Under the pieces are notes generated by a model. It ran no database searches and had not been told where the DNA came from. It saw only the letters and a program-made list of their open reading frames with translations. The position numbers were made by a program, and so were the translations under genes. Below, in pieces: positions 58,899-61,959 of a DNA stretch of 64,000 nucleotides (position 1 is the first letter of the stretch; each line of letters opens with the position of its first letter). Origin of the DNA: Thiohalomonas denitrificans (GTDB lineage Bacteria; Pseudomonadota; Gammaproteobacteria; Thiohalomonadales; Thiohalomonadaceae); assembly GCF_016841685.1 (NCBI RefSeq), contig NZ_JAENYR010000006.1, positions 22,108 through 86,107 on the forward strand. Reading direction: 5' to 3'.

Positions 58899-58900
58899 TA

Positions 58901-58984
58901 TCATAATTGGGGTCAGAGTAACTTATTCTATCATAATTGGGGTTAGAGTATCATAATCATAATTGGGGTCAGAGTAACTTATTC
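58901..58984. repeat. Three tandem REP-like units at the 3' end of the transposase gene
   Basis: TCATAATTGGGGTCAGAGTA occurs at 58901, 58931 (with one change) and 58957; the first and third continue as ACTTATTC. The last unit contains the stop codon of the transposase gene. A related AATTAGGGTCAGAGTAACTA lies at 61899-61918 and a partial copy at 53070-53084. Confidence 0.85.
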
Positions 58985-59623
58985 TGTCTTTTTCGGCCTG
59001 CCGCGCTTCCCGGGCGTCACCTGACAGCCAGTCAACTGCTCGATCTGCCTGGCGAAGCGTTCGTGCCCCAAGGCCAGTCCCTTGTTGATGCTTTGCCGAA
59101 TTTCATCCAGCAATATCCCCTCCACATGGGCCGCAAACAACGCCCGGTAGTTTTCCAGCCGTTCCCCCTTGTCCTTCCCGAGCGCCAGGTACAGCGCGTG
59201 AGGGGTATGCAGCTTGCTCTCTTTTCCGAACGCGTTACAGGGATAACTGGACCACGTGTACTCGTCCGGCTGCGTCACCATGTCTGCTCGCACGGGATTA
59301 AGCTCAATGTATCGGTACAGATGAAGCAAATAGGATTCGCTTTCGACCAGACACGACTTATAACGCCCCTCCCACAGAGTCCCGGTACGCTGATACGTGT
59401 AGTTGAAATACCTCACGTACATCCGGCCGAGGGCCTGCATCATTCGCGACATGGCTTCGGGAGCACGAGGCGTACAGAGCAGGTGAACATGGTTGCTCAT
59501 CAATACCCAGGCATGCACTTCGACTCTGAATTTGCCGGCGTACTCCCTGAGCCAGTGCAGATAAGCCCGCATGTCCTCTTCTGAGGCGAAACAGACCTGC
59601 CGGTTGTTGCCCCGCTGGATCAC
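58979..59623 (-). CDS. REP-associated tyrosine transposase (RAYT)
   Basis: The open frame from GTG 59623 gives 214 residues. It has the HUH motif in VLMSNHVHLLCTP, the catalytic Tyr region RYFNYTYQRTGTLWEGRYKS, and LHLYRYIELNPVRADMV, the Y1_Tnp/RAYT signature. The frame stays open upstream without a better start (PIGVPQHVIQRGNN would be native), so the true N-terminus may be slightly longer or lost. These single-copy-type transposases process REP hairpins, which fits the array at its 3' end. It may be active, unlike the copy at 53079. Confidence 0.88.
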   Translation of the reverse strand: MIQRGNNRQVCFASEEDMRAYLHWLREYAGKFRVEVHAWVLMSNHVHLLCTPRAPEAMSRMMQALGRMYVRYFNYTYQRTGTLWEGRYKSCLVESESYLLHLYRYIELNPVRADMVTQPDEYTWSSYPCNAFGKESKLHTPHALYLALGKDKGERLENYRALFAAHVEGILLDEIRQSINKGLALGHERFARQIEQLTGCQVTPGKRGRPKKTE

Positions 59624-59721: not shown

Positions 59722-59940
59722 CTATCGCTCCTCCCTGAATAGCTCACTCACATCCACTTCAAGCGCCTTCGCTAGCAAAGCAACCTCGGCATCTGTGATT
59801 CTTCGAACTCTCGCTTCGATCTTTCCAAGGGTCCCGCGGCTGATGCTCCAACCAAGCAGATTGCAGCGAGTTGCCAACTCATCCTGCGTCCAGCCCTTGG
59901 ATTCTCGAATTTCCCGCACACGGGGGCCAATCAAATTCAT
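59722..59940 (-). CDS. XRE-family helix-turn-helix regulator
   Basis: The ATG at 59940 has GGAG 7 bases upstream; the track's 59 extra residues cross the operators. The 72-residue protein is one Cro/C1-type domain: VREIRESKGWTQDELATRCNLL, the recognition helix region WSISRGTLGKIEAR, and AEVALLAKALEVDVSELF. The upstream DNA holds two equal palindromes, one covering the ribosome site, so autorepression is likely. It is divergent from the small coiled-coil gene at 60104, which may be its co-regulated partner. Confidence 0.88.
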   Translation of the reverse strand: MNLIGPRVREIRESKGWTQDELATRCNLLGWSISRGTLGKIEARVRRITDAEVALLAKALEVDVSELFREER

Positions 59941-59945
59941 TATTT

Positions 59946-59961
59946 GCTCCGCCATCGGAGC
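59946..59961. promoter_or_regulatory. XRE operator 1 (GCTCCG-N4-CGGAGC)
   Basis: GCTCCGCCATCGGAGC is a perfect dyad just 5 bases before the regulator ATG and covers its GGAG ribosome site. It has the same half-sites and spacing as operator 2. Confidence 0.8.
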
Positions 59962-59991
59962 TTGATTCTGGCAAATAGCCGTGCGAATATT

Positions 59992-60007
59992 GCTCCGCTT
60001 TCGGAGC
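59992..60007. promoter_or_regulatory. XRE operator 2 (GCTCCG-N4-CGGAGC)
   Basis: GCTCCGCTTTCGGAGC repeats operator 1 with a different 4-base centre, 46 bp away. Between them lies the likely promoter, so binding at both could shut both divergent genes. Confidence 0.8.
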
Positions 60008-60103
60008 ACCCAAGACAATTTATAGCTCAGGGACGGCGAACGCCTGCGTAATCGGGGTGTGGAACGGCTGAAACTGGAAAGTCCGAACGGAAGGGGAAAA
60101 GAA

Positions 60104-60304
60104 GTGAGGGAGTACAAACCAGGTGAGATTCAACGGCTGAAGGCCAAGATCGCGTCTTTAGAAGACCTCATCACCAAATGGCAACACGCGAACGATCCCG
60201 AATCCAAGTGGATGCTTTATCTGTTAAACGAGGTTTTGGAAATGGGCTACGCAAAATTGAAATATTTGCGACGGCGGGGACAACCCGATGAGCCCAACCG
60301 TTAA
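60104..60304 (+). CDS. Small coiled-coil hypothetical protein
   Basis: The GTG at 60104 follows GGAAGGGG by about 6 bases and is preferred to the GTG at 60059. The 66 residues are mostly helical: REYKPGEIQRLKAKIASLEDLITKW, ESKWMLYLLNEVLEMGYAKLKYLRRRG. The leucine pattern suggests a short coiled coil. No family recognised. It is divergent from the XRE regulator and shares its operator region; it could be a toxin or antitoxin partner, but this is only context. Confidence 0.6.
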   Translation: MREYKPGEIQRLKAKIASLEDLITKWQHANDPESKWMLYLLNEVLEMGYAKLKYLRRRGQPDEPNR

Positions 60305-60593: not shown

Positions 60594-61049
60594 CTATCTG
60601 GTAGCTTTTAACGACCAGATGAGTTCCATCCCGCGAAGTCCCATTTTTTGGAAGCACAGCATTATAAATTCCCGATTAGCAGTGAAAATTTCATCCATGT
60701 AGTCTGTCACTAGCGCAGCATGTTCATCTTTATCAAAATCCTTTTCTAGCTTGTAAGCAGCACGAAACAGGAAATTAGCTATGAACACAGGCTCATCATC
60801 CTCTTCACTGCCCTCAGCTTTGGAAGCTGCTGCGATTGGCCTCCCTGTAAATTTGAGATCCAAATCTATCAAAAACGGAAAGCCTTCCCAGCTAATATCT
60901 TTTTCCTCAGGCAATAACAGTCCACCGCTTACTTCCAAACTGTAAGCCCCTTTTTCGTTTACTGCATTCTCGTCCTTGAGAATGCATTCGCTTTTTAGCA
61001 TGCGTACAAGGCTTAATGTTGCATGCGGGTTTCCGGAATCATTTCCCAT
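60594..61049 (-). CDS. SecB-like chaperone of a toxin-antitoxin-chaperone module
   Basis: This 151-residue acidic protein starts at an ATG with GGGGAAGAG, overlapping the HicB gene by 37 bases. The N-terminal half has strands EKGAYSLEVSGGLLLPEEKD and FPFLIDLDLKFTG. The C-terminal half reads VFIANFLFRAAYKLEKDF, then IFTANREFIMLCFQKMGLRGMEL (residues 121-143). The REF ... MGL spacing is that of SecB-like chaperones of TAC systems (wREF-x-n-RMGLP), while the rest differs strongly from export SecB. It should hold the unstable antitoxin until HicA is bound. The assignment rests on this pattern and on gene order. Confidence 0.75.
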   Translation of the reverse strand: MGNDSGNPHATLSLVRMLKSECILKDENAVNEKGAYSLEVSGGLLLPEEKDISWEGFPFLIDLDLKFTGRPIAAASKAEGSEEDDEPVFIANFLFRAAYKLEKDFDKDEHAALVTDYMDEIFTANREFIMLCFQKMGLRGMELIWSLKATR

Positions 61050-61492
61050 GTTTTCTCTTCCCCAAAGACATTTTCACCAAATTTATCTTCCTCGGGACTA
61101 CGATATTCGTGAACATTTGTGATGTAGACTCTGCGAATGGGAGCATGCACCGGCCGACGAGCTCGAATAGCTGATTCGATCGCATTTTTCACAAAATCAT
61201 TCAGGCTTAGTCCAGACTCAGCCGCAAGCATTGCTGCTTGTCTATGAAGCTGCGTACCTATGCGGACGTTAAAGGTCCCTTTCCAAGGTTTTTCCGGTTC
61301 ATCGCCTAACTCTGCACAAGTCTGTAAATAATCATCCACAGACTCGCGAAAAGCCTCTTCAAGCTCCTGGACCGTATTAGCTTCATAGGTCACTAGGTCA
61401 TCTATAAACAGGAGCTTGCCATGCAAGTTCCCCGACGAAAGATCGACTTCGACTGAACCCAAATAACCTTTGTATCTAAGTGCTTTGCTCAT
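61013..61492 (-). CDS. hicB: HicB-family antitoxin with a C-terminal extension
   Basis: This 159-residue protein starts at an ATG that overlaps the HicA stop (ATGA). Residues 1-65 form the HicB partial RNase-H fold (YKGYLGSVEVDLSSGNLHGK, TVQELEEAFRESVDDYL). Residues 74-110 form a ribbon-helix-helix (FNVRIGTQLHRQAAMLAAESGLSLNDFV). About 49 more residues follow (111-159), ending in GEEKTWEMIPETRMQH. Ordinary HicB proteins stop near the DNA-binding part, so the tail is a candidate chaperone-addiction segment. It should neutralise HicA, repress the operon at the dyad at 61764, and depend on the SecB-like protein. Confidence 0.88.
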   Translation of the reverse strand: MSKALRYKGYLGSVEVDLSSGNLHGKLLFIDDLVTYEANTVQELEEAFRESVDDYLQTCAELGDEPEKPWKGTFNVRIGTQLHRQAAMLAAESGLSLNDFVKNAIESAIRARRPVHAPIRRVYITNVHEYRSPEEDKFGENVFGEEKTWEMIPETRMQH

Positions 61493-61737
61493 AGTAGCCC
61501 CACCTCTTCGAGGTGCTGTTTCACCTGCTTCAGGTACACCTGCTTGATCGTCTTTTCCGGATGCGGCTTATGTAGAAGAATTTTGCGACGCGTGCTTTCA
61601 TGTACGAACCTGACGCGCGAACCACTCCCTTGAACAGGCTTGTAGCCAAGGCCCGTAAGAAGAGACTCGAGCTCATTCCACTCGAAATCAGCAGGAATCT
61701 CCTTAAAGCGCTCAACCAGTTTCTCGTGTCGACTCAT
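61489..61737 (-). CDS. hicA: HicA-family mRNA interferase toxin
   Basis: I start at ATG 61737 (MSRHEKLVERF); the track's TTG adds five residues. The 82-residue protein is a double-stranded-RNA-binding-like HicA: WNELESLLTGLGYKPVQGSGSRVRFVHESTRRKILLHKPHP and a final helix VYLKQVKQHLEEVGLL. In many HicA toxins the catalytic His follows Gly-Ser; here the loop is GSGSRVRF and histidines occur at FVH and HKPHP, as in the variant group. It would cleave mRNA in the ribosome-bound state or freely when unopposed. Toxin-first order is normal for hicAB. Confidence 0.85.
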   Translation of the reverse strand: MSRHEKLVERFKEIPADFEWNELESLLTGLGYKPVQGSGSRVRFVHESTRRKILLHKPHPEKTIKQVYLKQVKQHLEEVGLL

Positions 61738-61763: not shown

Positions 61764-61786
61764 GTGCAACTAGATTTTAGTTGCAC
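61764..61786. promoter_or_regulatory. 23-bp perfect inverted repeat: probable hicAB operator
   Basis: GTGCAACTA-N5-TAGTTGCAC lies 27 bp upstream of the hicA ATG. The size and position suit binding by the HicB ribbon-helix-helix dimer or a pair. A second motif GTTAC-TTTC-GTTAC follows upstream (minus strand). Confidence 0.75.
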
Positions 61787-61898
61787 AGTACGCGTATAGT
61801 AACGAAAGTAACCGCTACTGACTATGGCAGCATGCCCTTTCGGAGGACCTCTAAGCACAGCCCATACTCATAAGCAATTGTTTTTAATTATAAATAAT

Positions 61899-61918
61899 TA
61901 GGGTCAGAGTAACTATTC
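61899..61918. repeat. Solo REP-like unit
   Basis: AATTAGGGTCAGAGTAACTA matches the units at 58901-58984. It lies just left of the broken toxin gene and may mark the truncation point. Confidence 0.65.
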
Positions 61919-61959
61919 TACCCTTTGAGGCTTCACACGGCCCACCCAATAGTCCGGGC

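Follow-up and report, generated by a model that had tools for sequence, protein, structure and literature searches.

Within a 64,000-nucleotide stretch of a Thiohalomonas denitrificans chromosomal contig, analysed here and called the window, a hicAB pair is followed by a third small gene. This locus raises the question of whether the three genes work together as a toxin-antitoxin-chaperone (TAC) operon. The three-gene layout itself is clear: overlapping open reading frames in the order hicA, hicB, third gene had been predicted from the bare sequence and were found as described (Table 1). By their coordinates, hicA and hicB overlap by 4 nt and hicB and the third gene by 37 nt, and all three frames are intact. 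The locus is very probably a HicABC toxin-antitoxin-chaperone operon, in which HicB would be addicted to the chaperone through its tail and repress the operon, and loss of HicC would free HicA. We read the three genes as a TAC because of the profile homology of the third protein, the homology of the HicB tail and a common operator.

Table 1. Features of the hicABC locus, in positions of the window.
Feature	Position	Strand	Description
hicA	61489-61737	minus	82 aa from ATG; toxin
hicB	61013-61492	minus	159 aa; antitoxin, core approximately residues 1-110
HicB C-terminal tail	61013-61162	minus	approximately residues 111-159 and stop codon; candidate chaperone-addiction sequence
hicC	60594-61049	minus	151 aa; divergent SecB-like chaperone, by profile comparison
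Palindrome TGCAACT-N7-AGTTGCA	61765-61785	no strand	upstream of hicA; probable HicB operator

Toxin and antitoxin were assigned by family. HicA matched PF07927 (E 2.9e-13) and the toxin family phrog_8887 (E 7.8e-27) and is 36% identical to the HicA of coliphage mEp506. HicB matched PF05534 (E 4.2e-20) and, aligned over its whole length, is 42% identical to the HicB of a viral contig (L108). In the HicA family the active-site histidine is expected in a GSH-type motif. Read by eye, the window HicA has GSGSRVRF at this site, with a conserved LHKPHP instead, and the histidine is not evident. Since related HicAs of the same clade also display GS-R at this position and have LHKPHP or FHEPHP in common, the lack of the GSH histidine would, on this reading by eye, rather be a feature of the clade than a sign of decay.

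The original prediction had pointed to a 49-residue extra tail on HicB, and such a tail is indeed without counterpart in two-component relatives. HicB relatives were found in 1,102 plasmid records, none of which aligned across 80% of the query, the alignments ending at residue 109-125 among the matches listed. HicBs of relatives that have no third gene are 109-131 aa long, and the HicB query gave no match in the viral contigs. The tail does align with the HicB tails of other HicABC modules, including those of the coliphage mEp234/mEp506 type, and a tryptophan shortly before the end (window residue 149) and a terminal histidine are common to all tails aligned. When 61 homologous loci were parsed singly, a third ORF adjoined 22 of 24 HicBs of at least 140 aa versus 1 of 37 shorter ones, in a set that is partly selected (six loci were fetched via the third gene, others via the operator) and in which related loci are non-independent. 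For loci obtained via HicB alone the corresponding counts are 3 of 3 tailed (L017, L018 and Rahnella L080) versus 1 of 35 tail-less HicBs. The tail may plausibly serve for chaperone addiction.

One alternative is an ordinary two-component HicAB pair that could do without the tail and the third ORF, or in which both are in decay. Most of the same-class HicAB relatives sampled do have a short HicB and no third gene, and the host genome encodes a separate, canonical SecB. However, three intact and overlapping frames, the co-occurrence of tail and third gene across loci and the conservation of tail residues in distant phage modules make this alternative improbable.

The third protein had been predicted to be a chaperone too divergent for simple SecB searches, and such searches indeed did not lead to SecB. 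The 151-aa sequence matched nothing in Pfam, NCBIfam, PHROG, PADLOC or PDB sequences, there was no match to the Pfam SecB model PF02556 at E up to 1, and direct searches returned no relative in viral, genome, plasmid and phage collections, in 299 genomes of the phylum or in the order. Aligned directly with a SecB profile by hhalign, the protein gave a weak match (E 0.015). A significant link to SecB required a family of HicAB-linked third genes as an intermediate. Against a profile of 14 such genes from HicAB loci of viral contigs, here the HicC family, the window protein scored 37.3 (hhalign; E 8.2e-6, probability 84%, 120 columns), a level that neither 420 unrelated native ORFs (best 22.1) nor 120 shuffled sequences (best 18.5) reached. 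The same 14-member profile matched a canonical SecB profile at E 3.2e-9 (probability 96%, 119 columns) and, also at E 3.2e-9, a profile of SecBs from HigA-, MqsA- and CmdTAC-like modules. By profile comparison the window protein is a member of HicC, a divergent group of SecB-like chaperones linked to HicAB. The protein of L235, an intermediate, matched phrog_19522 (E 2.5e-5) and has a C-terminal stretch in common with the window protein (GLRGMELIWSLK / GMRGVQLPWSIQ). Identity between the window protein and other HicCs is about 12-21%, and the other HicAB-linked third genes are likewise without a PF02556 match. The REF...MGL pattern that had first suggested a SecB-like protein is weak when taken alone, since single-sequence searches do not lead to SecB and the direct comparison is poor, but the likeness itself stands through the HicC profile.

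Several further comparisons gave nothing. A HicC profile without its diverse members had no signal against SecB, and a profile that included the window protein retrieved nothing related from the viral contigs. The HicC profile also hit NCAM2 in the PDB (E 0.0065), which was set aside as a chance match, and a weak match in G346 was dismissed for want of a HicAB context. The SecB Pfam search of genomes of the class supplied other TACs as yardsticks and no close relative. AlphaFold models of the window protein were of too low confidence to confirm the fold, both from the single sequence (pLDDT 39) and with phage HicCs added (pLDDT 44), and Foldseek found no SecB or other meaningful match for the latter. 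A HicB partner that is not SecB-like and has another mode of action, as maybe in L017, L018 and L247, where alternative third genes do adjoin tailed HicBs, would agree with the weak direct similarity and the poor models, but is slightly less probable again than a two-component pair, as the window protein matches the HicC family over 120 columns and this family matches SecB at E 3.2e-9, whereas no match to a SecB or TAC-SecB profile was seen for the alternative third proteins.

Several of the features by which TACs are recognised are present in the proposed HicABC operon. These are a type II toxin-antitoxin pair of the HigBA, HicAB or MqsRA families, given here by PF07927 and PF05534, a C-terminal extension of the antitoxin that is missing in two-component relatives, and a SecB-homologous chaperone in the operon, found through the intermediate HicC family. 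In TACs the antitoxin also needs the chaperone in order to work and is bound by it at the tail, and both are predicted for the window module.

The palindrome upstream of hicA is an exact match and the sole such site in the 3.79-Mb genome, even when one mismatch is allowed. The same palindrome with the same spacing recurs in the HicABC loci of Rahnella, of coliphages and of viral contigs; in the Rahnella and coliphage modules, as in additional viral contigs, it precedes hicB by about 295 bases. HicAB modules have a HicB with a DNA-binding domain and an operator upstream of the operon; the counterparts here are the PF05534 match and the conserved palindrome, a probable HicB operator. A scan of viral contigs for this site alone returned at least 120 stretches, of which at least 22 encode a HicB relative; in at least 17 of these the HicB is tailed and a third gene comes after it. 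It yielded at least about a dozen further distinct HicAB loci in which a tailed HicB is overlapped or adjoined by a SecB-like third gene. As judged from the loci compared, the palindrome is a mark of the HicB clade rather than strictly of chaperone dependence, since it is also present in L013, a HicAB locus that has no third gene and was not fetched by the site.

The nearest recognisable relatives were reached stepwise, tblastn with HicB leading to Rahnella pRAHAQ01 and the third protein of that locus to coliphages mEp234, HK106 and mEp506. The coliphage modules are those of mEp506, mEp234 and HK106 (GenBank PV340542, PV340539 and EF120460), and the newest GenBank records annotate their genes as HicA toxin, HicB antitoxin and HicC chaperone. 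A literature search found no paper on the coliphage module, and the coliphage HicCs fall in phrog_19522, annotated 'unknown function'. These modules and that of pRAHAQ01 resemble the window module in gene order, overlaps, a homologous HicB tail, a third gene of the HicC family and identical operator half-sites and spacing. They differ in that their third protein is only about 20% identical to that of the window, in that the window tail is about 7-8 residues longer in its middle part, and in that the window module is located on a bacterial chromosome contig rather than within a phage immunity region.

The identification as a HicA-HicB-SecB-like module is backed by the profile path from HicC to SecB, by tail homology to phage modules annotated with HicC and by the common operator, but the novelty claimed for it was overstated, as experiments on a HicAB TAC from Methylomonas methanica in 2016 had already placed an addiction region at HicB 119-159 (PMC5105189). 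This system, Mmet-TAC of strain MC09 (HicAB-SecB, Bordes et al. 2016), has a SecB-like chaperone that controls the toxin-antitoxin pair, and HicB residues 119-159 transfer chaperone dependence to another antitoxin (PMC5105189). Compared by its published description (PMC5105189), it shares with the window module the HicAB pair, the SecB-like chaperone and the C-terminal HicB extension; this extension confers chaperone dependence experimentally, whereas the role of the window tail is predicted. A primer stretch from the 2016 study, used as a probe for the Methylomonas locus, matched nothing but an integrase-like gene in a Bacteroidales MAG, by chance. Since HicAB TACs are known and one has been tested, the window module adds a new and highly divergent member to an established kind. 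Among the three TA families that occur in TACs, HicAB was described as the rarest (PMC5105189).

Two other systems offer a comparison. The Mycobacterium tuberculosis TAC (HigB1-HigA1-SecB-TA, Rv1955-1957) has the same layout and probably the same logic, and an aromatic tail residue, W108, is central to chaperone binding there, but its toxin and antitoxin families differ from those of the window. In CmdTAC a SecB-like chaperone stabilises the antitoxin until new phage capsid protein diverts this chaperone, whereupon the antitoxin is degraded by ClpP (PMC11618068). The proposed window module would likewise rely on a SecB-like chaperone to stabilise its antitoxin, although CmdTAC has an ADP-ribosyltransferase toxin and an unrelated antitoxin.

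We infer that HicA is toxic, that HicB depends on the chaperone and binds the operator, and what triggers the module, and picture its action as follows. HicA would be the toxin, by family an mRNA interferase, and would be neutralised by the N-terminal part of HicB, whose ribbon-helix-helix domain would repress the operon at the palindrome. The 49-residue tail would render HicB unstable unless bound by the SecB-like HicC; with HicC on the tail, HicB could fold and neutralise HicA. Were HicC drawn off, be it by export clients in an unfolded state or by freshly synthesised phage proteins, to name two examples, HicB would be degraded and HicA released.

The G+C content of the module is 46% versus 58% for the window, an IS200-like transposase gene (58979-59623) and an HTH gene (59722-60117) lie near it, and an 'addiction module component' gene (PF09720; 62101-62301, minus strand) adjoins it. 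The outer flanks read as a PEP-synthase-like and a dihydrolipoamide-dehydrogenase-like gene. Horizontal acquisition of the module fits, because of the low G+C and the neighbouring genes. The PF09720 gene is a lone one, with no evident toxin partner alongside. Repeats of about 33 nt (ATCATAATTGGGGTCAGAGTAACT) are found at 58900-58988 beside the transposase gene and again at 61891-61923 just upstream of the module, and may be the repeat associated with this transposase.

Other HicAB and SecB loci showed further arrangements. At three tailed-HicB loci (L017:1092-1409, minus; the third ORF of L018; L247:889-1185, minus) a conserved protein of about 100 aa replaces HicC; these proteins are 31-56% identical to each other, have no SecB, TAC-SecB, Pfam or PHROG match, and may represent another type of third partner for HicB. 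In coliphage mEp237 (L104:2173-3414) a HicC-type gene (phrog_19522) follows an HTH-type antitoxin-like gene that takes the place of hicB, so the HicC-type family also pairs with a HigA-like antitoxin. Two CmdTAC-like loci in genomes of the class (L047, L049) combine a protein of about 180-200 aa that has no match in Pfam with a small protein and a SecB-like gene (PF02556 in L047). On the Candidatus Thiodictyon plasmid pTs485 (L078), an MqsA-SecB pair lies directly upstream of DISARM drmA, as if in a defence island.

We tentatively suggest, as a reading somewhat short of an even chance, that HicABC is a widespread and largely phage-borne class of chaperone-gated toxin-antitoxin systems, whose HicCs are not covered by the Pfam SecB model and sense infection in the way CmdC does, with the window module as a copy on the chromosome that would detect structural proteins of phages. 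As a group, HicC chaperones escape the Pfam SecB model and are exposed by the common operator, which offers a practical handle for locating HicAB TACs. The operator-only scan yielded further loci with a tailed HicB and a SecB-like gene, and HicAB TACs are therefore probably under-counted. The window module illustrates how far the chaperone can drift, to about 12-21% identity and the loss of any Pfam match, with gene order, tail and operator still recognisable, and the HicABC set would allow the joint change of chaperone and addiction tail to be studied.
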